39,277 nucleotides of DNA from an uncultured Oscillospiraceae bacterium (lineage in GTDB: Bacteria > Bacillota > Clostridia > Oscillospirales > Oscillospiraceae): assembly GCA_947588955.1 (NCBI GenBank), contig CANPYX010000023.1, positions 1 through 39,277 on the forward strand, in the 5' to 3' direction. Position 1 is the first letter of the stretch, and every line of letters starts with the position of its first letter. A program made the translations under genes and the position numbers. Positions 8,935 through 27,542 of the stretch are shown in pieces. Under the pieces are notes generated by a model. It did not search any database and was not told where the DNA came from. It saw only the letters and a program-made list of their open reading frames with translations.

Positions 8935-9112
8935 TGCCGAAAAAGGGCCGCGCCCTTTTCCGGCAAGGGGGACGCGTGCGAAAAAGGATTCTGAAATGTC
9001 TGCGGACATTTCAGAATCCTTTTTCTGCTGTTTTGCTGCGCGCACGCCCCGTAGGGGCGCACGCTTGCAAAACAAAAGGTTATTTTTTCGACGTACATGC
9101 CGCCGGAAAAAT
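8935..9112 (+). repeat. Multi-hairpin element, copy A (behind hisIE)
   Basis: Four consecutive stem-loops start 2 bases after the hisIE stop. h1 (8935-8965) has 14-bp arms ending AAAGGGC/GCCCTTT with one mismatch. h2 (8980-9025) has 21 perfect pairs with loop TGCG. h3 (9029-9074) has outer arms TGTTTTGC/GCAAAACA, an internal loop TGCGCGCA opposite CACGCTT, and inner stem CGCCCC-GTA-GGGGCG. h4 (9082-9112) has arms beginning ATTTTT and ending AAAAAT around TACATGC, with one wobble and one mismatch. The same modules recur at 27355-27526 in the same order, and at 18079-18292 (minus) in another order. No protein is supported here. Confidence 0.85.
8980..9025. terminator. Bidirectional terminator-like hairpin h2 of element A
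   Basis: A perfect 21-bp stem with a TGCG tetraloop is flanked by AAAAA on the left and TTTTT on the right. It therefore presents a T-run after the stem on both strands. It lies between the convergent hisIE and pgi genes and could end transcription from both sides. Confidence 0.65.
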
Positions 9113-9129
9113 ATTGAATTTTTAAGATT

Positions 9130-9157
9130 AAAGCGGGCGCCGAAGGGCGCCCGCTTT
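9130..9157 (-). terminator. Hairpin directly behind pgi
   Basis: AAAGCGGGCGCC and GGCGCCCGCTTT form a perfect 12-bp stem with a GAAG loop, starting 5 bases beyond the pgi stop on the minus strand. On that strand the stem ends in TTT and is followed by an AT-rich stretch, which fits an intrinsic terminator for the glycogen operon. On the plus strand a T-run also occurs a few bases downstream. Confidence 0.7.
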
Positions 9158-9161
9158 GGGG

Positions 9162-10733
9162 TTATTTTTTGCTGAATTTGCTCAGGGTCACGTCGTCATC
9201 GTCGTAGGTGACGGTGAGGGCGGGGTCGTTGGAGCACAGGTGCAGCATGAGGCGGAAGACATCCTGGGGGTCGGCGTTCAGGGCCTCGGCGATCTCCGGG
9301 GCGGTCATCGCCCTGCCGGTCTTCAAAAGCAGCTCGCGGGCGCGGTTCTTCACCTCGATGAGGACGCCGGCGCACTTCTTGCCGTACTCCACGGCGGGCT
9401 GATGATAGGCGTTGATATTGATGAGGGCGGCGTAAATTCCCACGGCGCGCTCCCAGATGGCGATGAGCTGACCCACATTGTAGGCGGAAACACAGGGGAC
9501 GGTGACGGTCATTGTCTTCTTCCCGTGGTCCTCCAGATTCTTCTTGGTGCCCAGCATGAAGGCGTTCAGATAGTCGCCGGAGGTGGAGTCCTCGCCAACG
9601 CATACGGAGTCTCCCGCCCTGTCCTTTAGGACCTGGACGAATATCACGAATATGTTGGAAGGACCGCCGACGAGCTGCTGGACGTAGGAGTGCTGGTCGG
9701 AGGTGCCCTTGTTGCCCATCACTGCAAGGCCCTGGTTGACCTTGTTGCCGTCCAAATCCAGCTCCTTGCCCAGTGACTCCATCACCAGCTGCTGGAGGTA
9801 CTTGGCCAGCAGGTCCAGGCTGTCCTTATAGGGCAGGACCACCTGGGTGACGCCGCCCTTGCCGCCGGACATACGGTACCAGGCAAGCGCCATTATCGCG
9901 GCGGGGTTTTCCAAAATGTTGGGCTCCCTGCCCAGCTCGTCGCAGTCCGCGGCGCCCTGGAGGAAGGAGTCGATGTCAATGCCCTGGAGGGCAAGGGGCA
10001 GGAGCCCCACGGCGGACATGACGGAGGTGCGTCCGCCCACCCAGTCCCACATGGGAAACCGGTCGAGCCAGCCCTCTGAGACGGCCACCTTGTCAAGCTT
10101 GGAGTCCACGCCGGTGACGGTGACGGTGTGCTTGGCGAAGCTCAGCCCGTGGCTCTCATAGAACGCCTTTGCCTCCACCATGCAGTTTCTCGTCTCGATG
10201 GTGCCGCCGGACTTGGAGATTATGACGGTAAGCGTCTCGTCCAGCTCCGGCTCCACGGCGCGGAACACCGCGTCCATGCCTGCGGGGTCGGTGTTGTCCA
10301 AAAAGTAGAGCTTCATCTTGTCCTCAGGAGTCCCCAGCGCCTTGCTGACGAATAGGGGCCCCAAAGATGAGCCGCCGATGCCGCCCACCATGACGTTCCT
10401 CATGGCGCCGCCCTTCTCGCCGCAGACCTTACCGGAGTGGACGTCCGCCACAAAGGCCTTTATGTGGGCAAGGGTGTCGGTTATCTCCTTTGTCAGCTCC
10501 TTGGTGGGGGCGAGCTTCGGGGCGCGCAACCAATAGTGGCCCACCATGCGCTCCTCGTCGGGGTTGGCTATCGCGCCGCCCTCCAGCTCGTGCATGGCGC
10601 GCATGGCGGTGTTCATCTTCTTCTCCATGGAGAAGATGTACTCCGGGTCCATGCCCATGCCGCCCCACTCCATCATGAGCTTTGTCTTGGGGGAATAGAG
10701 AACGGTGTTGCTGTACATTGTCCAATCGTCCAT
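9162..10733 (-). CDS. pgi: Glucose-6-phosphate isomerase
   Basis: This cytoplasmic enzyme interconverts glucose 6-phosphate and fructose 6-phosphate. The 523 residues show the family signatures GGIGGSSLGPLFV (phosphosugar-binding SIS domain), VIISKSGGTIETRN and VGGRTSVMSAVGLLPL. The catalytic region around NKGTSDQHSYVQQL is present. A C-terminal extension of about 70 residues after the isomerase core (GRAMTAPEIAEALNADPQDV onward) looks like a small helical domain. An AAGGAG site precedes the ATG. It is the last gene of the minus-strand glycogen operon, just 30 bases after the GH13/GH77 gene. That places the entry of glycogen-derived hexose phosphate into glycolysis under the same control. Confidence 0.95.
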   Translation of the reverse strand: MDDWTMYSNTVLYSPKTKLMMEWGGMGMDPEYIFSMEKKMNTAMRAMHELEGGAIANPDEERMVGHYWLRAPKLAPTKELTKEITDTLAHIKAFVADVHSGKVCGEKGGAMRNVMVGGIGGSSLGPLFVSKALGTPEDKMKLYFLDNTDPAGMDAVFRAVEPELDETLTVIISKSGGTIETRNCMVEAKAFYESHGLSFAKHTVTVTGVDSKLDKVAVSEGWLDRFPMWDWVGGRTSVMSAVGLLPLALQGIDIDSFLQGAADCDELGREPNILENPAAIMALAWYRMSGGKGGVTQVVLPYKDSLDLLAKYLQQLVMESLGKELDLDGNKVNQGLAVMGNKGTSDQHSYVQQLVGGPSNIFVIFVQVLKDRAGDSVCVGEDSTSGDYLNAFMLGTKKNLEDHGKKTMTVTVPCVSAYNVGQLIAIWERAVGIYAALININAYHQPAVEYGKKCAGVLIEVKNRARELLLKTGRAMTAPEIAEALNADPQDVFRLMLHLCSNDPALTVTYDDDDVTLSKFSKK

Positions 10734-10763
10734 TTTAAATCAGCTCCTTAATAAAATATTGTG

Positions 10764-13700
10764 TTATAGGCCTTCATATATATCCAGCCGCCGGCTTTCC
10801 TTTGTATCAGCCAGAAGCCTGTCAGCGGCGCTCTTGTAGTCCGAGAATCGCTCCTCCCGGAAATCAGCCGGCTTTACGCGCCAGCGCCAGTTGCCGCCGG
10901 TGGTGCCGGGGGTGTTCATCCGCGCCTCGTTCCCCAGTCCGCAAACGTCCTGGAGCTGGAGTATCACCACGTCGGCTGAGGAGGCAAACAGATTTTTGCG
11001 CATCCTCCTTGCCGCCAGTACGGGCTTTTCATTGGGATACCTGTTGGCGGCGTAACCTACGAGCGTCTCATTGTCATGGGTGCCGGAGTACGCCACCTTG
11101 TCCTTCTGGGGCCAATAGCCGTACACCGGGTCGAACTGGTACTGCATTATATCCGTCCCAGGGAATCCGCAGCGGGAGAGAAGCGCCCGGATAGCTGGGG
11201 TTATGGCGCCCAGGTCCTCCGCCAGGAATGGCAGAGGTCCGAATTTGTCGTATGCCGCCTTGAAGAGCTTTATGCCCGGTCCGAAGCGCCACTGCCCGTC
11301 GGCGGGACCCTTCCCCGCCGGTATCGCCCAGCAGGACTCGAAGCCCATGAAGTGGTCAAGGCGCACGTAGTCGTAAAGGTCCATCATCCGCTTGAAGCGG
11401 CGCAGCCACCAGGTGTAGCCGTCCTTCTCCATAACGTCCCAGTTGTATAGCGGGTTGCCCCAGACCTGTCCGTCGTCGTTCCACGCCGGCGGCACACCGG
11501 CGATGAAAACGGCGTTACCGTCCCCGTCCACGGTGAATTCCTCCGGGTTTGCCCACACGTCGGCGGAGTCGGCGGAGACATACATGGGTATGTCGCCTAT
11601 TATCTTTATCCCCCTGGAGTTGGCGTATGCGCGCAGCTCGTGCCACTCGGTGTCGAACTGGAACTGGCAGAATTCCTGAAAGTCCCGCTCCGCCGCAAGC
11701 TCGGAGTCGCCGTCGCATATCCCGCTCCTAAAGCGCCGGTACTCCCGTGGCCACTGGGTAAACGGCTTGCCGCCGAAGCGTTTTTTTAATGCGGCGTAGG
11801 AGCACCATGGCTCCAGCCAGTGGGCGTTTTCCGTTTTGAACCGCTCATATGCTTTGTCCGGAACGAACTCATCAAACATGTGACGCAGTGTACTGCCCTT
11901 GAAGCGGCAGAAGTCCAGGTTTCCGGCAAAGGCTGACGGCCCCGCATAGGGTGACCCGTGCTCGTCGGTGGGGTTAAGCGGGAGCAGCTGCCAGTACTTC
12001 TGACCGGTTTTGTAAAGGAAGTTGACAAATTCCTCGCCGTCGGACCGAAGCTCCACCTTGTCGGCGCTGCGGGCGACGCTGGTGATGTGCGCCAGAATAC
12101 CCGCCCCGCGTTCCATGGGCAGTCCCAGGCGGACCCTTTTGTGGAAGTGGAGAATGGCGGAGCCCAGCGACCACAAGACCACACGGACCTTTCCGTCGCG
12201 AAGCTCGAATTTTGTGCCGCCCAATATGTCGGTGACGTCCTCTCCGTGGGAGTCGATGGTGACCTCCTGGGAACGGCTCCCCCGGTTCACAAGCACGGCG
12301 ATGCCCTCATCCTCCCAGTCGCGGTAGAAGCCGAACACGTCGTCCCCGAAGCAGAACGGTGAAAAGTCCGCGCCGGCAAGCTCGGGGAAGGCGCGGCGGA
12401 GGTTTATGGCGTTGCGGTAGATGGTATAGCAGTCCTTGTCCTCCCTGCCCCAGGGGTAGGTCCCGCGGTTGAAGGGGTCGGCATATCCCTCCATGCCCGC
12501 CTCGTCGCCGTAATAGACGCAGGGCACGCCGGGGAGCGTCATTTGCAGCAGCGCCATAAGCCACAGCTTTCCCTTGGCAAGCCCGCGCTGGGAGTCTGAG
12601 AGGCGGTAGCTTTTCTTCTGCTCCTCGCTGAGCTGTTCAGGTCTTGGGGCGCCTCCCAGGGCGGTGAGTACCCTCGCCCTGTCGTGACTGCCCATGAGGT
12701 TGAAGGAGGCGTTGAAATTTTCCGGCGGGTAGTTCTCCTTGAGGCTCCACATCGTCTCGTTCAGCGCCCAGGCGGGAACGTCGCCCAAAAGGTAGTAAAG
12801 GACGGCGTAGCGCACGGGATAGTTCATCACGCAGTCAAGCTCAGAACCCAGGAAGTACCGCCTCAGCTCGCCGTAGGCGACCTTGTTAGAGGCGTCCTCC
12901 CATACCTCGCCCATGAGGAGCCCCTCGCCGCCCTTTTCGGCGACAACGGCTGTCTTTATGTCCTCAATGAAGTCGTCGGGGAGCTCATCCGCCACGTCCA
13001 GCCTCCAGCCCTTAGCGCCCAGGCGGAGCCAGTGGCGCACCACGCTGTCGGTGTCGCCGGCGATGTAACTCTTAAAATCCGGGTCGTGCTCCTCCACGTC
13101 CGGGAGCTCGTCGTTTCCCCACCAGCACTCGTAGCGGTTGGGGAAATCGTAAAAGCGAAACCAGTTATAATATCTCGAAGCCGGTCCCTGGCAGGCGCCG
13201 GGGTCCGGGTAGTTTCCGAATTTGTTGAAATACTTGCTGTCACAGCCGGTGTGGTTGAAAACGCCGTCAAGGATCAGGGAGATTCCCCGCTCCTCCGCCG
13301 CGCGGCACAGGCTGGCAAACTTCTCCTCGTCCCCCAGCATGGGGTCCACCTTGCGGTAGTCGCCGGTGTCGTAGCGGTGGTTGCTGACAGCCTCGAAGAT
13401 GGGGTTTAAGTATATGGCGGTGATCCCCAGCCCCTTCAAATAGTCCAGCTTCTCCTCGATGCCGGAGAGTGTGCCGCCGTAAAACTCCCAGACGCTTATT
13501 CGCCCGTCGCGCATACGCTTGTAGCTCACGGGGGTGTTCCAATCCTCCACCAGCGCCTTCGGGGTCCCGTTTCTGGGCTTGGAGAGCGCCTTCATGGCGT
13601 TCTCCCGCCAGTCCTCGCCCCGGAAAAAGCGGTCGGGGAATATCTGATAGCATATGGCGTTCTTGTACCAATCGGGGACGGCGCGCGGCACGTAGGCGGT

Positions 13701-14039
13701 TATCTGGTACTCAGGGCACTGCCCGTCGTACATTTGCCCTATGCCTCCCACACTGCCCTGCCGCGGTCCGTACCAGCGCACGGCGCCGCCGGGGTAGTGG
13801 AGGATAAAGGAGTACCAGTGGATGTCCGCGGTCTTGGGTGTGACGGTGACGTAAAAGTGCCCGCCGTCACGGTCCATGGTGTAATATCTGTCCTCTTTTT
13901 TGTCCACACGCACCTTCAGCTCAGCCCATTCGGGCTCGCCGTCCCAGGTGTCGATGGAAATGGAAACAGCGCCGCCGAGGGCGACAGCGCCAAAGGGGTA
14001 ACGGAATTTAAGTTCTCGGGAGTCGTGGTAAGCTCTCAT
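10764..14039 (-). CDS. Fused GH13 alpha-amylase-type / GH77 4-alpha-glucanotransferase (glycogen debranching type)
   Basis: This 1091-residue protein has three parts. Residues 1-120 form a beta-rich domain like the N-terminal sandwich of neopullulanase-type enzymes. Residues 121-630 are a GH13 barrel with nucleophile Asp348 (GWRLDVADE), acid/base Glu378 (GEVWED) and Asp453 (GSHDRAR, where many relatives have NHD). Residues 640-1085 are a GH77 amylomaltase domain with SPYAGPSAFAGN, nucleophile Asp895 (VRLDHFMGFES), acid/base Glu941 (LAEDLG) and Asp989 (SGTHDNET). All six catalytic acids are present, so both halves look active. The GH13 half would hydrolyse or debranch alpha-glucan and the GH77 half would transfer and recycle short maltodextrins. 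Context: after glgA, before pgi. Confidence 0.93.
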   Translation of the reverse strand: MRAYHDSRELKFRYPFGAVALGGAVSISIDTWDGEPEWAELKVRVDKKEDRYYTMDRDGGHFYVTVTPKTADIHWYSFILHYPGGAVRWYGPRQGSVGGIGQMYDGQCPEYQITAYVPRAVPDWYKNAICYQIFPDRFFRGEDWRENAMKALSKPRNGTPKALVEDWNTPVSYKRMRDGRISVWEFYGGTLSGIEEKLDYLKGLGITAIYLNPIFEAVSNHRYDTGDYRKVDPMLGDEEKFASLCRAAEERGISLILDGVFNHTGCDSKYFNKFGNYPDPGACQGPASRYYNWFRFYDFPNRYECWWGNDELPDVEEHDPDFKSYIAGDTDSVVRHWLRLGAKGWRLDVADELPDDFIEDIKTAVVAEKGGEGLLMGEVWEDASNKVAYGELRRYFLGSELDCVMNYPVRYAVLYYLLGDVPAWALNETMWSLKENYPPENFNASFNLMGSHDRARVLTALGGAPRPEQLSEEQKKSYRLSDSQRGLAKGKLWLMALLQMTLPGVPCVYYGDEAGMEGYADPFNRGTYPWGREDKDCYTIYRNAINLRRAFPELAGADFSPFCFGDDVFGFYRDWEDEGIAVLVNRGSRSQEVTIDSHGEDVTDILGGTKFELRDGKVRVVLWSLGSAILHFHKRVRLGLPMERGAGILAHITSVARSADKVELRSDGEEFVNFLYKTGQKYWQLLPLNPTDEHGSPYAGPSAFAGNLDFCRFKGSTLRHMFDEFVPDKAYERFKTENAHWLEPWCSYAALKKRFGGKPFTQWPREYRRFRSGICDGDSELAAERDFQEFCQFQFDTEWHELRAYANSRGIKIIGDIPMYVSADSADVWANPEEFTVDGDGNAVFIAGVPPAWNDDGQVWGNPLYNWDVMEKDGYTWWLRRFKRMMDLYDYVRLDHFMGFESCWAIPAGKGPADGQWRFGPGIKLFKAAYDKFGPLPFLAEDLGAITPAIRALLSRCGFPGTDIMQYQFDPVYGYWPQKDKVAYSGTHDNETLVGYAANRYPNEKPVLAARRMRKNLFASSADVVILQLQDVCGLGNEARMNTPGTTGGNWRWRVKPADFREERFSDYKSAADRLLADTKESRRLDIYEGL

Positions 14040-14056
14040 ACGGTCGGTTATCCTTT

Positions 14057-14149
14057 AATGAATGGAATGCCGGGGATCTCTCCCCCTGCCGGTTTCCCGG
14101 CTTCTCCCCTCAGGGGAAAACGGGGCGGCGGTGTGCCGCCCCATTCATT
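14057..14149. repeat. Multi-stem structure between glgA and the GH13/GH77 gene
   Basis: Outer arms AATGAATGG (14057-14065) and CCATTCATT (14141-14149) are perfectly complementary. They enclose four small hairpins: GGGGA/TCCCC (14072-14085), GCCGG/CCGGC (14088-14101), a CCCC/GGGG stem around 14106-14117, and GGGGCGGC/GCCGCCCC (14122-14142, which slightly overlaps the right outer arm). The whole spacer could fold into a multi-branched structure within the operon mRNA. No clear T-run follows on the minus strand. Confidence 0.55.
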
Positions 14150-14165
14150 TGATTTTGTCGGAGTT

Positions 14166-15671: not shown

Positions 15672-15701
15672 TTTTTCCTCCTTTTGCAAAATAGACGCAT
15701 C

Positions 15702-15759
15702 TGACCGCTTTACCTCGCCCCGTCCCTCCCCCATTCGTGGGGAGGGACGGAGACGGTCA
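15702..15759. repeat. Nested hairpin in the glgD-glgA spacer
   Basis: The inner stem CGTCCCTCCCC (15721-15731) / GGGGAGGGACG (15739-15749) is a perfect 11 bp. Outer arms TGACCG (15702-15707) and CGGTCA (15754-15759) enclose it. It starts about 9 bases after the glgD stop on the minus strand. Such a structure can stabilise or separate segments of an operon mRNA; there is no following T-run. Confidence 0.5.
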
Positions 15760-15767
15760 TTTTGTTG

Positions 15768-16850: not shown

Positions 16851-16864
16851 TATTCACACCCTCC

Positions 16865-18004: not shown

Positions 18005-18078
18005 GAGATGACCTCCCTTTATAAGAAATTTATTATATTGACAGCCTTTTGAGCAAAGCTCACAAAAAAGTTGTAAGT

Positions 18079-18292
18079 ATTTTACCGACGGCATGTACGT
18101 CGGAAAAATCACCTTTTCTTGCATCGCAGATTTCGCGTCCGCAGACGCGAATAAATTTCAATCATTTTTCCAAGGACATGTGCCTTGGAAAAATGCCCTC
18201 TTAGGTCCCCAAGTGTGCGGTCCTCCGGACCGTGCGCGCAGGGGACCGGCAAGTCCCTTTAAATTGAAAAGGGCACCGCCCTTTTCAATTTA
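18079..18292 (-). repeat. Multi-hairpin element, copy C (inside the glycogen operon)
   Basis: Read on the minus strand from the glgP stop, the modules are as follows. h1 (18260-18292) has a perfect 15-bp stem with an AAAGGGC/GCCCTTT base, overlapping the stop codon. h3 (18204-18247) has outer arms GGTCCCC/GGGGACC, internal loop TGCGCGCA opposite CACACTT, and inner CGGTCC-GGA-GGACCG. A first h4 (18164-18194) has 12 perfect pairs around CACATGT. h2 (18132-18151) has TTCGCGTC-TGCG-GACGCGAA. A second h4 (18079-18109) has a TACATGC loop. Compared with copies A and B, the order is changed, h4 is doubled, and h2 lacks its flanking A and T runs. Confidence 0.85.
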
Positions 18293-20707
18293 ATTAAGAT
18301 CCCATACATCCTCCGCGTACTCCCTGATGGTGCGGTCGGAGGAAAATATACCGGAGCAAGCGGTGTTGTGGACGGACTTCCTGTACCACTCGCGCTTGTC
18401 GGAGTGCAGCGCCTCCAGGCGGCCCCAGGCCTCGATATACGGCTGGAAGTCCTTCAAAACGAAGAACTCGTCGTTGGAATTCATAAGATTCGCCCGAACG
18501 GAATCGAACCCGCCTGAGAGCTTGGCGAAGGTGCCGTCGGTGAGCTGGTCCACCACCCGACGCAGGCGCGGGTTGGAATCGTACTCGCCCTGGGCGAAGT
18601 AGTTGTAGTTGCGCTTGAACTCCGCGATCTCCTCGGTCTTAAGGCCGAAAATCTCCGCGTTTTCAAAGCCCACCTGCTCCACTATCTCCACGTTGGCACC
18701 GTCAAGCGTGCCCAGCGTCAGAGCGCCGTTCATCATGAACTTCATGCACCCGGTGCCCGATGCCTCCATTCCGGCGGTGGAGATCTGCTCGGAGATGTCC
18801 GCCGCGGGGTAGATGAGCTGTCCGTTGGAGACGGAGAAGTTGGGTATGAACACCACGCGTATCCTGCCGCGCACGCGGGAATCGGTGTTTATCACGTCGG
18901 CGACGGAGCAGACCAGGCGTATTACGTTCTTGGCGAAGTCGTAGCCCTGGGCGGCCTTGCCGGCGAAGATGAAGGTGGTGGGCTTCACGTCGTAGTTGGG
19001 GTCCTCAAGAATGTGGTTGTAGATGTCCATTATCTTGAAGAGGTTCAAAAGCTGCCGCTTGTAGGCGTGGAAGCGTTTCACCTGGATGTCGAAAATGGAG
19101 TCGGTGTCCACGATTATGCCCGTGGTGTCCTTAATGTAGCGGGCAAGGACTTGTTTGTTCCTGCTCTTGGACTTTGCCGCCTTGTCAAGGAACACGTTGT
19201 CGTTCTCAAATTCCTTGAGCCTGGCAAGCTCCATGGCGTCGGTGTACCACTTGTCGCCTATCGCCTCGGTGATGAGGGAGGCGTAGGTGGGGTTGGCCTG
19301 TGCAAGGAACCTCCTGTGGGTGACGCCGTTGGTCTTGTTGTTGAATTTCTCCGGTGTGAGAGAGTAGAAGTCCCGCAGGACGTCGCGCTTGAGTATCTCC
19401 GTGTGGAGGGCGGCGACGCCGTTGACGGCGTGACCGGCGATGACGGAGAGGTTCGCCATTCTCACCTGCCCGCCCCAGAGTATTGCGGTGTTCATAAGGA
19501 GCTCCTGGTTCTGCTCGCGGCGCATGGCAAAGGACTCGCGGTAGCGGCGGTCGATCTCCGCCACAAAGTCGTAGACGCGGGGCAGGAGGCGCTGGAACAT
19601 ATCTATCGGCCACTTCTCCAGCGCCTCAGGGAGGATGGTGTGGTTGGTGTAGGAGATAGACTTTGTGACGATCTCCCAGGCGGTATCCCAGTCAAGTCCT
19701 TCCTCGTCGATGAGGAGCCTCAAAAGCTCCGGAGCGCAAAGGGCGGGGTGCGTGTCGTTGGTGTGTATGGCGATGAGCTCCGGGAAGCGTTTCCATGCGT
19801 GCTTGCCGTACTCGCGCTTATAATAGCGCAGTATGGACTTGAGCCCCGCCGCCACGAACATATACTCCTGCTTCAGGCGTAGGACCTTGCCGGGGTCGGC
19901 GTTGTCGTTGGGGTAAAGGACGCTGGTGATGGCCTCCACGTCGGAGCGGAACTTCATAGCGCCGGCGTAGTCGCCTCTGTTGAAGGCGTCCATATCGAAA
20001 TTCTGCTTTGCCGGCTCAGCGGACCACAGGCGCAGGTTGTTGACCGTCTTCCCGCCGAAGCCCACGATGGGAACGTCATAGGGGACGGCAAGGATCTCCT
20101 CCCCGCCCGTCCACTCATAGCTCATGGAATTGCCGGAGTATTTGTGGACAACCGTGCCGCCGAAGCGCACCTTGACAGCCTCCTCCGGGCGCTCGATCTC
20201 CCAGGGGTAGCCGCCCTCAAGCCAGTTGTCCGGGTCCTCCACCTGACAGCCGTTCACTATCCTCTGATGGAAAAGCCCGTAGCGGTAACGGATGCCGTTG
20301 CCCTGTCCGATGTAGCCCAGGGAGGCGAGGGAGTCAATGAAGCAGGCGGCAAGGCGTCCGAGACCGCCGTTGCCAAGGCCGGCGTCCTCCTCCTCGGCGG
20401 CGAGCTCCTCGATGGTGACGCCGTAGTCGGCAAGTCCCTCCTCCACCAAGTCCTTGATGCCGAAATTCATTATATAGTTTTCCAAAAGCTTGCCCAGAAG
20501 GAACTCCATGGAGAAGTAATAGACGCGCTTCTTCTCCTCTTGGCGCGTCTCATCGCTGACCACGCGCACGTTGCGCGCGTTGGAGGAGATGAGCTTTGCC
20601 AATGCCTGATACTTGAGCCTGTTGGGCAGCTTGTCAAACTGCTTGCCGAAATTGGCTACCGCCGCGTTTTCCAGCTGTCTTGTGAAGTCTTTTTTGTCCT
20701 TGAACAT
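18290..20707 (-). CDS. glgP: Glycogen phosphorylase
   Basis: This PLP enzyme releases glucose 1-phosphate from the ends of glycogen. The 805 residues are GT35-type throughout: RVYYFSMEFLLGKLLENY, DAGLGNGGLGRLAACF, IHTNDTHPALCAPE, NKTNGVTHRRFL, KRFHAYKRQLLN and the PLP site EASGTGCMKFMMNGALTLGT with Lys656. The common form of that site is SGTSNMKF, so GTGCMKF is a small variant. An AAGGAG site precedes the ATG. It lies between glgB and the element C spacer before glgC. Substrate preference (glycogen versus maltodextrin) cannot be read from the sequence; context favours glycogen. Confidence 0.95.
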   Translation of the reverse strand: MFKDKKDFTRQLENAAVANFGKQFDKLPNRLKYQALAKLISSNARNVRVVSDETRQEEKKRVYYFSMEFLLGKLLENYIMNFGIKDLVEEGLADYGVTIEELAAEEEDAGLGNGGLGRLAACFIDSLASLGYIGQGNGIRYRYGLFHQRIVNGCQVEDPDNWLEGGYPWEIERPEEAVKVRFGGTVVHKYSGNSMSYEWTGGEEILAVPYDVPIVGFGGKTVNNLRLWSAEPAKQNFDMDAFNRGDYAGAMKFRSDVEAITSVLYPNDNADPGKVLRLKQEYMFVAAGLKSILRYYKREYGKHAWKRFPELIAIHTNDTHPALCAPELLRLLIDEEGLDWDTAWEIVTKSISYTNHTILPEALEKWPIDMFQRLLPRVYDFVAEIDRRYRESFAMRREQNQELLMNTAILWGGQVRMANLSVIAGHAVNGVAALHTEILKRDVLRDFYSLTPEKFNNKTNGVTHRRFLAQANPTYASLITEAIGDKWYTDAMELARLKEFENDNVFLDKAAKSKSRNKQVLARYIKDTTGIIVDTDSIFDIQVKRFHAYKRQLLNLFKIMDIYNHILEDPNYDVKPTTFIFAGKAAQGYDFAKNVIRLVCSVADVINTDSRVRGRIRVVFIPNFSVSNGQLIYPAADISEQISTAGMEASGTGCMKFMMNGALTLGTLDGANVEIVEQVGFENAEIFGLKTEEIAEFKRNYNYFAQGEYDSNPRLRRVVDQLTDGTFAKLSGGFDSVRANLMNSNDEFFVLKDFQPYIEAWGRLEALHSDKREWYRKSVHNTACSGIFSSDRTIREYAEDVWDLN

Positions 20708-20788
20708 ATGGTTCTCCTTAAAAATATATAGGATAGCTTTTAAGGCGCCCCGCCTGTTATTTTATTTTCGCGGGAGCTGCCGTTAAAT

Positions 20789-22693
20789 TCATTTTTCCGC
20801 TCTTTTAGGCGGGAGCCTCTTGAGGATGAGCCCTCCGATGGGCGGCGTGCGCACCGTCACGGAGTATTTCATCCCGTGGGCGGGGACCTTCTCCGCCTCC
20901 ATGGGCTCTGGGTTTATCCTGCCTGAGCCGCCGAAGCGTTGGTCGTCGGAGTTGAATATCTCCACGTATGTCCCCTTCCTGGGAACTCCTATGCGGAACC
21001 CGTCGTAGGTCTCCGGGACGAAGCTCAAAAGGCACGTCAAATCCTCCGTGGGCGTCTTTCCGCTGCGGACGAAGGTGAGTATGGACTGGGCGGAGTCGTC
21101 GGCGTCCAGCCACTTGAAGCCCTCCCAGGAGAAATTCTTCTGCCAGAGGGATTTTTCCTTCAAAAACAGGTGGTTGAGCTCCTTCACGTACTGCTGGTGC
21201 CTGCGGTGGGCGTCATAGTCCAGCAGGAACCACTCAAGCCCCTCATAGTAGCGCCACTCGATAAACTGGGCTATTTCCGCGCCCATGAAGTTGTGCTTTG
21301 CGCCGGAGTGGAGCATCTGGTAGAGCATCAGCACCCTGAGCCCCGCGAACTGCCGCCAGTAGTCCCCCGGCATACGCCCTATGAGCGACGCCTTGCCGTG
21401 GACCACCTCGTCATGTGAGAGGGCGAGGATAAAATTCTCGTTGAAGGCGTACATCATTGAGAAGGTCAGCGCCCCGTGGTGGGCGGGACGGTACGGGAAG
21501 TCCGTCTTCATGTAGTTTAGCGTGTCGTGCATCCAGCCCATGTCCCACTTGAAGTGGAAGCCCAGTCCCCCGTCCTCTGGCGGGTAGGTCACCAGCGGCC
21601 AGGCGGTGGACTCCTCGGCTATCATCATAACGTCCGGGTATATTTTGGAGACGGTGGAGTTTATCTTGCGTATGAGGGCTATGGAGTCATAGTCGTGCTC
21701 CGTGCCGTCGGAGGCGTGCTTTTTAAGCCGCTCGTCGTCTATGCCGAAATTCAGATACAGCATACTTGTGACGCCGTCCATGCGTATCCCGTCGGCGTGG
21801 AAGCGTTCAAGCCAATAGACGGCGTTGGAGATGAGGAAGGAGCGCACCTCGCCGCGCCTCACGTCAAATTTGTAGGTGCCCCACTGGGGATGCGAGCCGC
21901 CCTCGTAAAGCGGCTCTCCCACGAACTCCCCAAGCCCGTGGGCGTCACGGCAGAAGTGTGCGGGCGCCCAGTCAAGAATTATTCCCAGCCCTGCCCTGTG
22001 CGCCTCGTTTATAAAGTGCTGGAACTCCTGAGGCGAGCCGTAGCGGGAGGTGGGGGCGTAATAGCCGGTGAGCTGGTAGCCCCAGGAGCCGTCAAAGGGG
22101 TGCTCCATAACCGGCATGATCTCCAGGTGCGTGTAGCCCATGTCCACAGCGTAGGGCACCAGCGTCTCGGCAAGCTCCGTGTAGGAAAGCACCGTGCCGT
22201 CCTCGTGCCGCCGCCAGGAGCCCAGGTGGACCTCATATATGTTGAGGGGCTTTTCCCTCATGTTCCCCTTTTTGCGGGATGCCATCCACTTGTCGTCCGT
22301 CCATTTGAAGGAGGTGACGTCCGCGACGCGGGAGGCCGTCTCAGGCGGGCGCTCGCAGTAGTTGCCGTAGGGGTCGGCCTTGTAAATGAGCCTGCCGTTT
22401 TTCGTCTCGATGACGTACTTGTAGCTCTCCCCCTCGTTGAGCCCCGGCATAAATACGGTGAATATCCCGTTGTCCCCCGTGGGCTCCATGAAGTGGCGCT
22501 GCGGGTCCCAGTCGCACCAGGAGCCGGTGAGCCTGACGGACTTGGCGCCCGGCGCCCATACGGTGAAGCTCCAGCCCCACACGCCGTCAACGCATACCTT
22601 GTGCGCGCCGAAAACGTCAAAAGCGCGCACCCACGTGCCCTCGGCAAACTCCCAGCTTTCGTCGTTAGTAAGTATTTTTTTATCCATCGTCAT
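20789..22693 (-). CDS. glgB: 1,4-alpha-glucan branching enzyme
   Basis: GlgB cuts alpha-1,4 chains and rejoins them in alpha-1,6 linkage, creating glycogen branches. I start it at ATG 22693, with AGGGG about 5 bases upstream; an ATG at 22687 is an alternative. The 634 residues have a CBM48 domain (about 35-130: TVWAPGAKSVRLTGSWCDWD) and a GH13 barrel. Nucleophile Asp306 is in GIRMDGVTSMLYLNFG, acid/base Glu360 in MIAEESTAWP, and Asp428 in LSHDEVVHGK. A C-terminal beta domain follows. It is the first gene of the operon, with a good promoter upstream. Confidence 0.95.
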   Translation of the reverse strand: MTMDKKILTNDESWEFAEGTWVRAFDVFGAHKVCVDGVWGWSFTVWAPGAKSVRLTGSWCDWDPQRHFMEPTGDNGIFTVFMPGLNEGESYKYVIETKNGRLIYKADPYGNYCERPPETASRVADVTSFKWTDDKWMASRKKGNMREKPLNIYEVHLGSWRRHEDGTVLSYTELAETLVPYAVDMGYTHLEIMPVMEHPFDGSWGYQLTGYYAPTSRYGSPQEFQHFINEAHRAGLGIILDWAPAHFCRDAHGLGEFVGEPLYEGGSHPQWGTYKFDVRRGEVRSFLISNAVYWLERFHADGIRMDGVTSMLYLNFGIDDERLKKHASDGTEHDYDSIALIRKINSTVSKIYPDVMMIAEESTAWPLVTYPPEDGGLGFHFKWDMGWMHDTLNYMKTDFPYRPAHHGALTFSMMYAFNENFILALSHDEVVHGKASLIGRMPGDYWRQFAGLRVLMLYQMLHSGAKHNFMGAEIAQFIEWRYYEGLEWFLLDYDAHRRHQQYVKELNHLFLKEKSLWQKNFSWEGFKWLDADDSAQSILTFVRSGKTPTEDLTCLLSFVPETYDGFRIGVPRKGTYVEIFNSDDQRFGGSGRINPEPMEAEKVPAHGMKYSVTVRTPPIGGLILKRLPPKRAEK

Positions 22694-22772
22694 TACAGCC
22701 CCTATGTAAATAATGGTATAAATCTCCCATAACGGCATGCCGCGCGCAGGCGTACATCGCCGCCATGCTCAC

Positions 22773-22801
22773 ATTATAACAGACGGTTTTGGATTTGTCC
22801 A
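22773..22801 (-). promoter_or_regulatory. Sigma-A promoter of the glycogen operon
   Basis: On the minus strand TGGACA (22801-22796) and a perfect TATAAT (22778-22773) are 17 bp apart. Transcription would begin near 22766, about 73 bases before the glgB start. Confidence 0.75.
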
Positions 22802-22949
22802 CCGTTTTCCATCAGTTTCAGGCGCCCTTTTTAGTTATTTTTTACGGATTGTCCAAAAAATTCATTCCGTTTTTGCAAATCTTGCACAAAAGCGCCCCTT
22901 TGTACACAAAATCCACATCATTTGTTAACATTTGATTTACCTAAAAGTC

Positions 22950-22978
22950 TTGATTTCGCAAAAAACGGAGGATAAAAT
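22950..22978 (+). promoter_or_regulatory. Possible promoter of the carbohydrate-binding lipoprotein gene
   Basis: TTGATT (22950-22955) and TAAAAT (22973-22978) are 17 bp apart, about 30 bases before the ATG. The region between this and the divergent glgB promoter (22802-22949) is AT-rich, and I see no gene in it. Confidence 0.45.
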
Positions 22979-23010
22979 CTGTCCCATCTTCACGAAATGA
23001 GGTCAAACCC

Positions 23011-24573
23011 ATGAAAAAATTTACGCTTTTGCTCATAGCCGCGGCGCTGCTCCTTTCCCTCGCCGCCTGCTCCCCGGTTGAGGAGCCCGCGGGAAACGAC
23101 AGCATAAACGAGCCGCCGACCGACGGCGCTGACGCCTCCGGCGTCCCTGAGTCCGAGGACAACGCCGCCGACGAGGTCCTCGTAGATATACCCACGGGTC
23201 ACATCATCAGCCTCTCCGACGACGCCGTCACCATGGACGGCGCTGCGCTCACCGAGGACATGACCGACGTTTACACCGTCAGGGACATAGTCTATTACCG
23301 CGCGGGCCTGGGCTTCACCTACGGCGAGGGCGCCGAGGAGGACGAGCACTCCCAGGAGGAGGCGGATTCCCACACGGTCGTACACATCGCCTCTCCAGGT
23401 ACTTACGTCCTCACCGGAAAGCTCTCCGCCGGTCAGGTGGCGGTCGACCTGGGCGAGGACGCCGAGTCCGACCCCTCCGCCGTGGTGAACCTGGTACTGG
23501 ACAACGCCGACATCACCTGCACCGTTGCTCCCGCCATCATATTCTACAACGTGTACGAGTGCGGCGACAAGGACACCGCCTCCTCCACGGTGGACACCTC
23601 CTCCGCCGGCGCCAACGTCTACATCGCCGACGGCTCGGTCAACACCCTCAACGGCTCCTACGTGGCGCGCATCTACAAATCCATTGAGCTGAGCGAGGAC
23701 AAGACCGAAGTCATCGACAGCAAGAAGCTCCACAAGTACGACGGCGCACTCTACTCCAAAATGAGCATGAACGTCACCGGCAACGACGGCGTCCTCAACA
23801 TAAACGCGGAGAACGAGGGCCTGGACACCGAGCTCCACCTCACAATAAACGGCGGCGTCATCAACATCGTCTCCGGCAACGACGGTATCAATACCAACGA
23901 GGACGGGGTGTCCGTCACCACCGTCAACGGCGGCCTCCTCACCGTCACCGTCAACGGCTCCACCGGCGAGGGCGACGGCATCGACTCCAACGGCTGGCTC
24001 GTCATCAACGGCGGCACGGTCCGCGCCTACGCCTGCTCCACCTCCGGCGACGCCGGTATCGACTCCGACATGGGCATAATCATAAACGGCGGCGAGGTCG
24101 TCGCCACCGGCAACATGCTTGACGCCATCGACGGGGCAAGCACCCAGAGCTACGTCCTCTTCAACTCCCTCCGCTCCAAGGGCAGGACCTCCTTCACCCT
24201 GAAGGACGCCGAGGGCGCGGAGCTCATGGACGTGCCCGTCTCGGAAAATTCCTTCTCCATACTCATCGTCTCCGGCCCGAAGCTCACCTCCGACGGCCTG
24301 TGCGCCCTCTATGAGGGCTCCACCCTCATAGCCTCCGCCACCCCCGGAGGCGCTGACCGCGGCGGCTTCGGCGGATTCGGCGGCGGTATGCGTCCCGGCA
24401 ACGGCGAGCGCCCGGAAATGCCGGAGGGCTTCGACCCCCAGAACCCTTCCGAGGACTTCCGCGGCGGCAACCGAGGCGGCTTTGGCGGAGAAACTCCCCC
24501 CGAAATGCCCGACGGTCAGGAACCCCCGGAGGTCCCAGAGAACGGCTCCCCCTCCATCGGCACTCCTGTCTGA
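23011..24573 (+). CDS. Carbohydrate-binding (Cthe_2159-like, DUF4353) lipoprotein
   Basis: The 520 residues start with a lipoprotein signal (MKKFTLLLIAAALLLSLAAC, lipid-modified Cys20) and an acidic linker. A long right-handed beta-helix-type region follows at about residues 120-430, with repeated turns such as NVTGNDGVLNINAENEGLDT, LTINGGVINIVSGNDGINTN and GWLVINGGTVRAYA. This matches the family of Clostridium thermocellum Cthe_2159, described as a polysaccharide-binding parallel beta-helix. The asparagine/aspartate-rich turns could bind calcium. The C-terminal 75 residues are low complexity, rich in Gly, Pro and Glu with RGGFGG repeats. It is divergent from the glycogen operon. The sugar ligand is unknown, and a direct link to glycogen metabolism is only positional. 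Confidence 0.82.
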   Translation: MKKFTLLLIAAALLLSLAACSPVEEPAGNDSINEPPTDGADASGVPESEDNAADEVLVDIPTGHIISLSDDAVTMDGAALTEDMTDVYTVRDIVYYRAGLGFTYGEGAEEDEHSQEEADSHTVVHIASPGTYVLTGKLSAGQVAVDLGEDAESDPSAVVNLVLDNADITCTVAPAIIFYNVYECGDKDTASSTVDTSSAGANVYIADGSVNTLNGSYVARIYKSIELSEDKTEVIDSKKLHKYDGALYSKMSMNVTGNDGVLNINAENEGLDTELHLTINGGVINIVSGNDGINTNEDGVSVTTVNGGLLTVTVNGSTGEGDGIDSNGWLVINGGTVRAYACSTSGDAGIDSDMGIIINGGEVVATGNMLDAIDGASTQSYVLFNSLRSKGRTSFTLKDAEGAELMDVPVSENSFSILIVSGPKLTSDGLCALYEGSTLIASATPGGADRGGFGGFGGGMRPGNGERPEMPEGFDPQNPSEDFRGGNRGGFGGETPPEMPDGQEPPEVPENGSPSIGTPV

Positions 24574-24580
24574 TTTTCCC

Positions 24581-24609
24581 TTTACTAATTTGCGATCATA
24601 TGTTACAAT
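24581..24609 (+). promoter_or_regulatory. Probable glpK promoter
   Basis: TTTACT (24581-24586) and TACAAT (24604-24609) are separated by 17 bp. Directly after it, ATATCTC and GAGATAT (about 24609-24634) could pair as a small stem-loop in the leader. Confidence 0.55.
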
Positions 24610-24643
24610 ATCTCTGCGGATCTCACGGAGATATTTGTATATT

Positions 24644-24675
24644 TTTATATATGGAGGTCTTTATATATGGAGGTC
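24644..24675 (+). repeat. 16-bp tandem duplication of the glpK ribosome-site region
   Basis: TTTATATATGGAGGTC occurs twice with no gap (24644-24659 and 24660-24675). Each copy holds a GGAGGT ribosome site and an ATG; the second GGAGGT sits 7 bases before the glpK start at 24682. Confidence 0.9.
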
Positions 24676-24681
24676 ACCGGC

Positions 24682-26184
24682 ATGAAAAAATACCTTCTCG
24701 CCCTGGACCAGGGAACAACCAGCTCCCGCGCCATACTCTTTGACACCGACCAGAACATCGCCGGTGTCGCCCAGCGTGAGTTCACCCAGTATTTCCCCCA
24801 AAACGGCTGGGTGGAGCACGACCCCATGGAGATATGGGACTCCCAGCGCGCCGTGATGGAGACGGTCCTGCGGGAAAGCGAGGTCTCCCCCGCCGACGTG
24901 CTGGCGATAGGCATAACCAACCAGCGCGAGACCACCATCCTCTGGGACAAAAGCACCGGCAAGCCGGTATTCAACGCCATCGTCTGGCAGTGCCGCAGGA
25001 CGGCGGACATAGTTGAAAAGCTGGAGCGCGACGGCCTCACGGAGCACATCAAAGCCGTCACCGGCCTTGTGCCCGACGCCTATTTCTCCGGCACAAAGAT
25101 AAAATGGATACTCGACAACGTCCCCGGCGCGCGGGAGAGGGCACAGCGCGGCGAGATACTTTTCGGCACGGTGGACACCTGGCTTTTGTGGAACCTGACA
25201 GGCGGCAAGGTCCACGCCACGGACCTCACCAACGCCGCCCGCACCATGCTCTTCGACATCCACAGGCTGTGCTGGGACGACACCCTCCTCAGCGCCCTTG
25301 ACATCCCCCGCGCCATCCTCCCAGAGGTGCGCCTGAGCAGTGAGATATACGGCTACGCCGACATCGGCGGCACGTCCGTGCCCGTCGCGGGCATGGCCGG
25401 CGACCAGCAGGCGGCGCTTTTCGGTCAGAGCTGCTTCGACGCCGGGGACGCCAAAAACACCTACGGCACCGGCTGCTTCCTCCTGATGAACACCGGCACG
25501 GAGCCCTTTGTCAGCCGCAACGGGCTTGTTACCACCGTCGCCGCCGGTCTCCCCGGAAAGGTCACCTACGCCCTGGAGGGCAGCGTATTCGTGGGCGGCG
25601 CCGTGATACAGTGGCTCCGGGACGAGCTGCGCATACTCACCGAGGCGCGGGAGGCGGAGACGATGGCAATGTCCGTCCCCGACAACGGCGGCGTGTACCT
25701 GGTCCCCGCCTTCACCGGCTTTGGCGCGCCCCGCTGGGACATGTACGCCCGCGGCGCCATCGTCGGCCTCACCCGCGCCACAACAAGGGAGCACATCGTC
25801 CGCGCGGCGCAGGAGTCCATCGCCTACCAGGTGGCGGAGCTCACCCGCAGCATGGAGGCGGACACCGGCATGACCCTGGACTCCCTCCGCGCCGACGGCG
25901 GAGCCAGCCGCGACCGCTTCCTCATGCAGTTCCAGGCGGACATCATCAACAAATCCGTCCGCCGCCCCGTGATCCGCGAGACAACCGCCCTGGGCGCGGC
26001 GTACCTCGCCGGGCTCGCCGTAGGCGTTTGGAACAGCACCGAGGAGCTCAAATCCCTCTGGCGCGTGGATGCGGAATTTAGCCCCTCCATGTCCGATACC
26101 GAGAGGTCCCGCCTCCTCTCCGAGTGGGACCGTGCCGTGGGCAGGAGCCTGGGCTGGGCCCTCCCCGACCCCGGCGGAAAATAA
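24682..26184 (+). CDS. glpK: Glycerol kinase
   Basis: GlpK phosphorylates glycerol to glycerol 3-phosphate with ATP. I place the start at ATG 24682 ([20 protein letters not shown]), 7 bases after the second copy of a duplicated GGAGGT; the ATG at 24667 lies within that repeat. The 500 residues are full length for the FGGY family. The N-terminal ATP-phosphate loop DQGTTSSRA, the [20 protein letters not shown] substrate region, [14 protein letters not shown] and [17 protein letters not shown] are visible. The phosphotransferase-dependent histidine loop common in Firmicutes GlpK is not obvious. No glpF, glpD or glpO is adjacent, so it appears to be a single-gene unit. Confidence 0.95.
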
Positions 26185-26209
26185 AATTGCCCTTTTTCAA
26201 TATTTTTTC

Positions 26210-26238
26210 TTGACACGCCGTACTTTTTGTGTTATTAT
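26210..26238 (+). promoter_or_regulatory. Sigma-A promoter of rplJ-rplL
   Basis: A perfect TTGACA (26210-26215) and TATTAT (26233-26238) are separated by 17 bp, 26 bases after the glpK stop. Transcription would start near 26245. Confidence 0.85.
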
Positions 26239-26244
26239 GCCCTA

Positions 26245-26345
26245 GCGTTCCAAAGACAGCAGGTGGCGAAGAGCCGTAAATCCTGCCGAGGGCAGCAAGA
26301 AAATTGCTATTCCATGCCCCGATGCTTTGCGCGTCGGGGCATTTT
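26245..26345 (+). ncRNA. Ribosomal protein L10 leader (autoregulatory mRNA structure)
   Basis: The rplJ 5' leader contains AAGACAGCAGGTGGC and GTAAATCCTGCCGAGG, the pairing elements of the known L10 leader in Firmicutes. There the L10(L12)4 complex binds and represses its own mRNA. The helix AGCAGG/CCTGCC is visible. It is followed by a GC-rich hairpin, ATGCCCCGA (26314-26322) with TCGGGGCAT (26334-26342) and a TTTT run. That hairpin resembles an intrinsic terminator and suggests control by premature termination as well as by translation. Confidence 0.85.
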
Positions 26346-26384
26346 CTGTGGACGCCATCAAAAACCACGGAGGTGAAAACAAAA

Positions 26385-26915
26385 ATGCCCAATGCAAAGG
26401 TCCTGAGCGAGAAGCAGGCAGTAGTTGCCGAGCTCAAGGAAAAGCTCAAGGGAGCCGCCGCCGGCGTGCTGGTTGACTACTCCGGTATCACCGTGGCTGA
26501 CGACACCGCCCTCCGCCGCAAGATGCGCGAGGAGAAGGTGGACTACGCCGTAGTCAAGAACACCCTGGTCCGCTTCGCCATTGACGACGCCGGATACGCC
26601 GAGCTTGACCCCCTGCTCCACGGCACGACTTCCCTGGCCATCTCCCACGATGACGCCCTGGCGCCCGCCAGAGTCGTCTCCGAGTTTGCCGAGAAGCTCC
26701 AAAACTGCTTTGAGATCAAGGGCGGCTTCATGGACGGCAAGGTCATATCCGTCGATGAGATAAAGGCCCTTGCCAAGATCCCCCCGCTGCCTGTTCTGCG
26801 CGCACAGGTCCTCGGCACCATGCTGGCCCCCATTTCAAGCCTTGCCTGCGTGCTGAAGGCCATCGCCGAGAAGAACGGCGCCCCCGCCGAGCCCGAAGCG
26901 GCTCCCGCGGAGTAA
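26385..26915 (+). CDS. rplJ: 50S ribosomal protein L10
   Basis: L10 anchors the L7/L12 stalk on the large ribosomal subunit. I choose ATG 26385 with GGAGGTG at 26369-26375; upstream in-frame codons fall in the leader. The 176 residues start MPNAKVLSEKQAVVAELKEK and show GVLVDYSGITVADDTALRRKMRE and YAVVKNTLVRFAI, typical of L10. The C-terminal helices that bind L7/L12 dimers follow, ending in an Ala/Pro/Glu-rich tail. rplL follows after 53 bases. rplK-rplA is not upstream and rpoB is not downstream, so the usual ribosomal-RNA polymerase cluster is split here. Confidence 0.95.
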   Translation: MPNAKVLSEKQAVVAELKEKLKGAAAGVLVDYSGITVADDTALRRKMREEKVDYAVVKNTLVRFAIDDAGYAELDPLLHGTTSLAISHDDALAPARVVSEFAEKLQNCFEIKGGFMDGKVISVDEIKALAKIPPLPVLRAQVLGTMLAPISSLACVLKAIAEKNGAPAEPEAAPAE

Positions 26916-26968
26916 TCAACCGCAATCTGCAACATCCTTAAAAAATACTTACAGGAGGAAAATTTAAA

Positions 26969-27349
26969 ATGGCTGCTGAAAAAATCGCTGCCCTGATCGA
27001 AGAGGTCAAGGCTCTTACCGTTCTCGAGCTCTCCGAGCTCGTACATGCCCTTGAGGAGGAGTTCGGCGTTTCCGCCGCTGCCATGGCCGCTCCCGCCGCC
27101 GGCGCCGCCGCCGCTGCTCCCGCCGCCGAGGAGAAGACCGAGTTTGACGTCGTTCTCGCCGGCTTTGACGCCGCCGCCAAGATCAAGGTCATCAAGGCCG
27201 TCCGTGAGATCACCAACCAGGGCCTCGCCGAGGCGAAGGCCACCGTCGAGGGCGCTCCCAAGACCATCAAGGAAGCCTGCTCCAAGGACGAGGCTGAAGA
27301 GCTCAAGAAGAAGCTTGAGGAAGCCGGCGGTAAGGTAGAGCTGAAGTAA
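26969..27349 (+). CDS. rplL: 50S ribosomal protein L7/L12
   Basis: L7/L12 forms the flexible stalk that recruits translation factors. The 126 residues have the N-terminal dimerisation helices (about 1-35: [20 protein letters not shown]), an Ala-rich hinge (about 36-55) and the conserved C-terminal domain with [40 protein letters not shown] and the ending [14 protein letters not shown] at 26954-26959 supports the start. Element B starts 5 bases beyond the stop. Confidence 0.97.
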
Positions 27350-27354
27350 CTGGC

Positions 27355-27526
27355 TTGAAAGGGCTTCGCCCTTTCAATGCCAACAGGATACGTGCGAAAA
27401 AGGATTCGGAAATGTCTGCGGACATTTCCGAATCCTTTTTCTGCTGTCGCGCTGCGCGCGCCGCCGGAGGCGGCACACTTGCGCGACAAGAGGTAATTTT
27501 TCCGACGTACATGCCGTCGGAAAAAT
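27355..27526 (+). repeat. Multi-hairpin element, copy B (behind rplL)
   Basis: The module order is the same as in copy A. h1 (27355-27377) has a perfect TTGAAAGGGC/GCCCTTTCAA stem. h2 (27396-27441) has 21 perfect pairs around TGCG. h3 (27445-27488) has outer arms TGTCGCGC/GCGCGACA, TGCGCG opposite CACACTT, and inner CCGCC-GGA-GGCGG. h4 (27496-27526) has 12 perfect pairs, ATTTTTCCGACG/CGTCGGAAAAAT, around TACATGC. Against copy A, the h2 stem differs by one fully compensated pair (T-A to G-C). The outer h3 stem is almost completely replaced but still perfectly paired. Confidence 0.87.
27396..27441. terminator. Bidirectional terminator-like hairpin h2 of element B
   Basis: A perfect 21-bp stem with TGCG loop is flanked by AAAAA and TTTTT. 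It sits between the convergent rplL and SLOG genes and offers a T-run after the stem on both strands. Confidence 0.65.
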
Positions 27527-27542
27527 ATTGGATTGGGGGATT

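Follow-up and report, generated by a model that had tools for sequence, protein, structure and literature searches.

REP/BIME elements are extragenic palindromes near gene 3' ends, and BOX repeats are modular. A repeat that recalls both occurs in three copies, here called A, B and C, in a 39,277-nt contig of an uncultured Oscillospiraceae bacterium (CANPYX010000023.1 of assembly GCA_947588955.1; "the window" denotes this whole stretch). It differs from REP/BIME elements in its ends, and its own genome has no match to a Y1 transposase. Passages of PMC4923244 describe IS1272/TnSha1, a staphylococcal member of the IS1182 family, as targeting hairpins largely irrespective of their primary sequence; among its seven target sites, hairpins A to E were confirmed as terminators. 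Insertion sequence (IS) elements in the genus of the window share its transposase family by NCBIfam and are likewise hairpin-associated, but IS1272 is reported to delete part of the hairpin, whereas the present repeat is a short element without genes and with duplicated terminators. The BOX, RUP and SPRITE repeats of Streptococcus pneumoniae appear in passages of PMC10969869 as short repeats, some terminator-like, that insert into each other. The likeness to them lies in the short, partly terminator-like repeats; the present repeat is set apart by an interior shared across genera, IS1182-like ends, and module replacement at orthologous sites. QMITE2 of Coxiella burnetii is portrayed in the same excerpts as an element of about 190 bp with inverted-repeat ends, a structured interior, and truncated copies that resemble palindromic repeats. 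The present repeat is similar in size, inverted-repeat ends and structured interior, but the direct repeats of QMITE2 measure 7-9 bp (PMC10969869), compared with terminator-long ones in a subset of the copies described here.

Hairpin targeting by IS1182 elements is already known; the new parts are the duplication of terminators, a structured interior common across genera, and hairpin-wise turnover. Literature searches on REP, miniature inverted-repeat transposable element (MITE), IS1182, BOX, terminator and Oscillospiraceae topics returned no title or abstract describing this repeat, and no paper combining "Oscillospiraceae" with "miniature inverted-repeat". Our analysis suggests that the repeat is probably a high-copy, non-autonomous element of the MITE type, with ends matching those of an IS1182-family insertion sequence of the genus, and moved by an IS1182-type transposase. 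We infer this mobilization, and likewise the function of the element, from sequence comparison. An earlier, sequence-only reading of the window had attributed the three copies either to selection on a folded nucleic acid or to copying of a structured mobile unit. The latter is now well supported by more than 100 copies, by empty and filled sites, and by a subset of copies with end repeats and flanking duplications.

Far from being confined to the window, the repeat is found in 121 copies in its own 2.56-Mb genome (118 of them analyzed here) and in 131 copies in a close relative, G316, using R1, a covariance model of the h3-h4 core built from 43 sequences. Under strict filters, with at most 14 scored candidates per genome and about 28 top loci read by eye, R1 matches occur in 140 of 300 genomes of the family, representing 67 of 106 genera, own genome included. 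R2, a second model built from 35 sequences, covers the family-wide core and has matches in three of 391 genomes of the class, all three within the family of the window; three strong R2 copies lie in the own genome (C7:56103, C16:38231 and, in the window, C23:18121). A DNA search of the own genome with B as the query returned 54 rows, 40 long and 14 short and self-complementary. Among the matches listed, the exact h4 core occurs in Pseudoflavonifractor gallinarum, in metagenome-assembled genomes of Dysosmobacter and Butyricicoccus, and in many uncultured Oscillospiraceae of the "Lapin" series. Carriage by phages or viruses was considered and discarded, as the exact h4 core pattern is present in 0 viral contigs. 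The sequence-only reading recognized no named family, and the Rfam comparison agrees: no family reaches its gathering threshold over the window elements or in 10 loci of other genomes, and the best near-misses in A are microRNA hairpins far under their gathering scores, attributable to chance.

Two forms of the element can be distinguished, both built of hairpins termed h1 to h4. The genus form, seen in A and B and the commonest in the genus, reads h1, GGGGAACGTGCG, h2, CTGC, h3, AAAAGGTG, h4. The family-wide form, found at many loci of other genera, reads h1, TGC, h3, AGARGT, h4, GATTTGA, in most cases a TGCG-loop hairpin (h2'), and ACTCTGCGAGGC; in short, h1-h3-h4-h2'-TCTGCGAxGC. A circular permutation relating the two (h2-h3-h4 versus h3-h4-h2') was entertained but set aside, the homology of h2 and h2' being unproven and based on a short loop and neighboring letters. 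Elements are about 180-205 nt long and leave no room for a transposase-sized reading frame. A second structured repeat of at least 100 bases (CTCGTCGTCGCTGAAGCCGCTTAACCTCGCCCCGC...CTCCTCTCCCC...GGGGACCCC) lies inside the h3 loop of at least 12 own copies, for example C6:60241, C9:13905 and C5:61825, and similar sequence is also found outside elements.

The ends of a subset of copies carry much of the case for mobility. Outer end repeats like CAGACTGTCAAAAAA, of the type CAGnCTGTCrAmAAA, are present in a subset, and in a subset a TTTTTGACAGTCTGAA-like right end and an AGnCTGTCrnCAAAG-like left end resemble the IS1182 ends of the genus, CAGTCTGTCAAAAAAC; to this extent the repeat does match a known kind of transposon end. 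Between duplicates the element begins like AGCCTGTCGGCAAAG and ends like TTTTTTGACAGTCTGA. A loose right-end pattern matches 40 of 193 tails, some by chance, and the own genome has 16 occurrences of TTTTTGACAGTCTGAA with at most two mismatches and 0 of the reversed pattern. In the genus form, the two flanks of 11 of 189 copies share a word of at least 13 nt, whereas re-paired flanks predict 0.4. The 14 genus-form duplications reported, one a 32-nt word, CGCTCCGGCGATTTAAAATCGCCGGAGCGGTT, reduce to about nine sites once three contig-edge artifacts are removed and two pairs that look orthologous are taken into account. In the family form, mostly from other genera with some from the genus, flanks share a word of at least 14 nt in 11 of 50 unique copies (0.05 expected). 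Most of the shared words listed are hairpins or parts of hairpins, and the longest duplicates, 32 nt at C17:35419 and 40 nt at locus L407, comprise the whole terminator hairpin of the gene. In genome G315, the terminator at the rplL position stands on either side of the element (rplL, hisF and hisI are names given by position, not by family search). At the hisF-hisI junction the window has a single GTGAGGTTAT, while G316 has an element between two copies of (A)GTGAGGTTAT.

A comparison with the insertion sequences of the genus points to a candidate mobilizer. Twelve of 31 genus genomes carry PF13751 transposases, and five of the 30 loci show both ends (by an imposed end pattern) about 1.5 kb apart. 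All five have transposases assigned to the IS1182 family above the NCBIfam cut-off and are flanked by palindromic duplications of 22-31 nt, a feature that the search did not impose. Another IS1182 element, in G316, starts with CAGTCTGTCGACAAACCC, which resembles a second kind of element right end, GGGTTTGTCAACAGTCTGAA. In the own genome, one probable IS end, with a start codon and promoter-like sequence, recurs at contig ends C3:1, C50:1 and C48:5; it adjoins a terminator-like hairpin on C3 and C50, and no body of this IS was detected in the assembly. Differing IS-like ends closing in TTTTCACAGCCCC abut h1 or h2 of elements at contig ends C55, C17, C10, C26 and C46, and those at C17:130 and C46:14978 resemble the end beside a G316 IS1182 transposase (locus L456). 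Such junctions suggest that element hairpins may themselves serve as targets. The alternative of a REP/BIME family moved by a single-strand RAYT (Y1) transposase would fit small, palindromic, high-copy, extragenic repeats near gene 3' ends. However, Y1_Tnp (PF01797) has 0 matches in the own genome and is detected in five of 14 control genomes, and the RAYT pattern is not known to include long target duplications and inverted-repeat ends; we rejected this mode of mobilization as very improbable.

Within the window, copies A (8935-9112, +), B (27355-27526, +) and C (18079-18292, -) were found in the sequence exactly where the sequence-only reading had placed them. Its observation that one T-A pair of h2 in A is G-C on both arms in B also holds (8980-9000/9005-9025 versus 27396-27416/27421-27441), and A and B are 78-79% identical across aligned repeats. 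The claim that each copy contains the same four modules is correct for A and B; the module order of C differs, running h1, h3, h4, a short h2-like hairpin with a TGCG loop, the tail TCTGCGATGC, and another h4 that is slightly degenerate. This order matches that of other genera. By comparison with G316, C is a composite of a family-wide form over a genus-form remnant, since G316 carries a plain genus-form element at the site of C. The features are as follows (ORF, open reading frame).

8268..8277, + strand: empty site at the hisF-hisI junction by position, with a single GTGAGGTTAT (sequence, G316 comparison).
8935..8965, + strand: h1 of A, a hairpin 2 nt past the stop codon of ORF 8276-8932 (sequence, fold, ORF list); its 5' side resembles a putative degenerate left end repeat.
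8980..9025, + strand: h2 of A, a perfect 21-bp stem with a TGCG loop (sequence, fold).
9029..9074, + strand: h3 of A, with outer stem TGTTTTGC/GCAAAACA, an internal loop, and an inner stem with a GTA loop (sequence, fold).
9082..9112, + strand: h4 of A, ATTTTTTCGACGTACATGCCGCCGGAAAAAT (R1 match 9025-9116, consensus fold; absent from A's own minimum-energy fold).
18079..18109, - strand: remnant genus-form h4 of C; the orthologous G316 site is a plain genus-form element.
18121..18130, - strand: tail of C, TCTGCGATGC, within a mini-hairpin with an outer pair that differs between genera on both sides.
18132..18151, - strand: h2' of C, TTCGCGTC-TGCG-GACGCGAA, placed after h4 rather than before h3 (sequence, fold, R2 match).
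18164..18194, - strand: family-wide-form h4 of C (R2 match 18121-18196, 80.7 bits, C itself being among the 35 sequences of R2).
18204..18247, - strand: family-wide-form h3 of C, with outer stem GGTCCCC/GGGGACC; the fold forms the inner stem only.
18260..18292, - strand: h1 of C, overlapping the stop codon of ORF 18290-20707 (sequence, ORF list, fold).
27355..27377, + strand: inner part of h1 of B, directly past the stop codon of ORF 26969-27349; the stem in the fold reaches about 27351-27382.
27396..27441, + strand: h2 of B (sequence, fold).
27445..27488, + strand: h3 of B, with outer stem TGTCGCGC/GCGCGACA (sequence, fold).
27496..27526, + strand: h4 of B (R1 match 27441-27530; fold).

The ORF upstream of B (26969-27349) is rplL by position, behind an Rfam L10 leader that lies upstream of ribosomal protein genes at 26232-26355. 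Two tRNA-Ser genes stand side by side at 1121-1353.

Turnover at orthologous sites was assessed by comparison with G316. Of the 118 own copies, 47 have both flanks in G316 copy loci (84 of the 131 G316 copies were chosen, 75 lying within the loci compared); 34 of these pairs are clean and 24 could be parsed, the ten unparsed ones including C, interrupted copies and copies with a variant h4. The flanks of the parsed pairs are 88.8-99.3% identical. Identity of at least 90% is retained by h4 in 21 of 24 pairs, compared with h1 in 6/23, h2 in 7/24 and h3 in 8/24, and identity falls below 75% in many combinations (h1 in 13 pairs, h2 in 10, h3 in 9, h4 in none). Whole h2 stems switch type between orthologs, and two orthologous elements are inverted in place. 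Replaced stems are mostly well paired, with exceptions down to 0.68 and one ortholog without a detectable h1. Where both flanks of an own-copy site are present in G316, an element or part of one occupies 25 of 29 sites, a proportion biased upward because the G316 contigs chosen were already known to carry orthologs. The h4 pattern identifies 23 of these and a variant h4 two more, one site being reduced to ends and h4; by the h4-pattern test four sites lack the element, one of which keeps h1 (site 18 is without h4, and site 75 retains it).

A near relative (at least 90% identity) elsewhere in the own genome was found for 76 of 86 h2 modules. Two hairpins precede h2 in eight of 193 copies, joined at ACGT in seven and at GCGT in one, and in two of the eight the first hairpin is possibly a host terminator. 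When h3 is interrupted by the longer repeat, its arms match well in 7/12 copies (one of the 12, C40:10925, possibly misparsed) versus 147/152 compact copies, as expected if halves of interrupted copies recombine. At G316:C42:19995-20214 (L292), h3-h4 is tandemly duplicated with the second right-end type, and this may represent an intermediate of module turnover. We infer that hairpins are exchanged as units between copies, which is best supported for h2.

The proposed mechanism has an IS1182 transposase moving the element in trans. The enzyme would recognize an extruded terminator hairpin and nick both strands at the stem base; gap filling would then duplicate a hairpin of whatever length. The inserted element's own hairpins would become the 3' end of the gene, and sense insertion at terminators would therefore be tolerated. 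Whole h1, h2 and h3 modules would later be swapped as the many copies recombine, insert into one another and undergo deletion, a process that would preserve pairing without compensatory mutation at each base.

Several observations weigh against this reading. No target duplication is visible at A, B or C, and the outer right end is missing from A and B; the same is true of most copies. Only five of the 16 TTTTTGACAGTCTGAA sites are at element right ends. Several of the words common to both flanks in the genus form represent half a hairpin or a diverged copy rather than an exact whole hairpin, and the clean empty/filled case at hisF-hisI has a duplication of 10-11 nt with no hairpin. The own assembly has no PF13751 match, with probable IS ends at contig edges only, and 25 of the 30 IS loci fail to show both ends (many being truncated at a contig end, and L456 having another kind of end). 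For IS1272, the cutting described in passages of PMC4923244 is blunt, with partial deletion of the stem-loop and no target duplication. A relative of at least 90% identity elsewhere in the own genome exists for only 21 of 88 h1 modules, which weighs against simple exchange for h1, and the copies with a doubled h1 are compatible with nested insertion only if no duplicate of h2 is left behind. Lastly, h3, h4 and h2' are common to several genera, though a plain MITE needs no conserved interior.

Folding of the individual copies supports the hairpins to differing degrees. The minimum-energy fold of B consists of exactly the four hairpins (z -9.26), that of A as RNA forms h1, h2 and h3 but not h4 (z -7.67), and that of C forms h1, h4, h2' and the second h4, with only the inner stem of h3 (z -6.15); in each case 0 of 200 shuffles were as good. 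Across own and G316 copies, h2 (159 copies, 108 different 5' arms) is 98.3% Watson-Crick paired versus 71.2% with arms swapped between copies, h1 (162 copies, 127 arms) 97.4% versus 55.9%, and the h3 outer stem (148 copies, 19 arms) 87.4% versus 69.1%; the swapped-arm control uses the same arms, and these percentages are upper bounds because the hairpin finder rewards pairing. One position of h2 has all four Watson-Crick pairs at high frequency (TA 50, CG 50, GC 34, AT 13). The TGCG loop is present in 155/159 h2 copies, the finder having admitted 16 loop patterns only. An alignment of 35 sequences from the family shows double changes in 58 cells versus 9.8 in shuffles, and in the family-wide core 11 of 14 pairs have double changes against 4.5 expected, which 0 of 500 shuffles reach, the structure in this test being derived from the same alignment. 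In alignment A3 the invariant tail pairs carry no weight, because the tail was used to select its sequences. Covariation thus survives in the larger alignments, with pairing strongly kept and double changes above shuffles. The changes of stem with pairing kept noted by the sequence-only reading stand as regards pairing, but much of the variation between copies reflects entire hairpin modules being replaced, not slow compensatory mutation. Selection on an RNA fold may also be at work.

Nearly every copy is at a gene 3' end, as follows from its neighbors: oriented from h1 to h4, 101 own copies have neighbors ++ in 45 cases, +- in 39, -- in 16 and -+ in one, and 47 family-form copies, mostly in other genera, give 23, 16, 7 and 1 (genes were called as ORFs by codon usage, without a standard gene finder, and 17 of the 118 own copies lie at an edge or without a neighbor on one side). 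The excess of sense copies between tandem genes (45:16, p 0.0003, own; 23:7, p 0.005, family form) is what might be expected of a structured 3' untranslated region (UTR) RNA, such as a terminator, stabilizer or protein-binding RNA, selected at the transcript level and spread by duplication. The UNCG-type TGCG loop of h2, the double changes in the family-wide core, the sharing of 25 of 29 sites by both genomes, and the excess of G.T over A.C pairs in h2 (34:13, p 0.003) agree with it. On the other hand, h1 has no such excess (29:27) and h3 (23:35) and h4 (2:139, mostly one column) run in the opposite direction, so that there is no clear RNA-strand signature overall; moreover, antisense orientation is seen in 16 of the 61 tandem copies and inversion in two orthologous ones, and stems are already replaced where flanks have diverged by a few percent. 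Also against it, nine of 28 genus genomes, own included, show an element behind the rplL-position gene, and the other 19 show none and mostly have a plain terminator (400 nt read by eye); at L213 in genome G322, downstream of this terminator, the apparent start of an IS200/IS605-type transposase was seen, also by eye. At A, terminator scans pick out h1 (minus strand), h2 and the host terminator next to the element. The elements may terminate transcription; we put it no more strongly because the scans make no call inside the four hairpins of B or C. Taken together, we consider a 3'-UTR RNA a possible but doubtful account of the family.

Somewhat less probable still is that pairing is kept by mutation and not by selection, with template switching or cruciform-based correction perfecting the long inverted repeats in place, a process by which the stems would drift. 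Near-perfect stems in h1 and h2 would be consistent with this (with the caveat that the finder rewards pairing), as would the near equality of G.T and A.C in h1, the scarcity of close relatives among h1 modules, and the poorer match of interrupted h3 arms. The last of these follows equally from recombination within the insert, and the orthologous h2 stems that change type, together with the many h2 modules that have a near relative, are better explained by exchange.

An IS1182-mobilized MITE is thus the reading we prefer, though the conserved interior and the hairpin-wise turnover are unexplained by mobility alone. One speculative extension, which we think has perhaps a minor chance of being correct, is a mobile 3'-end cassette that would land on terminators with duplication of the entire hairpin, take over the 3' end of the gene and continually reshuffle its interchangeable modules, with a conserved core read by a dedicated factor. 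As part of this joint and equally tentative proposal, the hairpins would evolve as exchangeable units over more than 100 loci. The core, it is suggested with the same reserve, would be the h3 loop, h4, the TGCG hairpin and the TCTGCGAxGC mini-hairpin, read as RNA or as single-stranded DNA.

In conclusion, the duplication of the target hairpin provides a footprint at the sequence level by which the hairpin-cutting step of IS1182-type transposition can be tested. Compensatory-looking covariation in this family arises largely via module replacement, and this calls for caution when conserved RNA structures are inferred from repeats in bacteria. Should the elements supply the ends of transcripts, they would act as portable terminators that reshape gene 3' ends in a common gut family.

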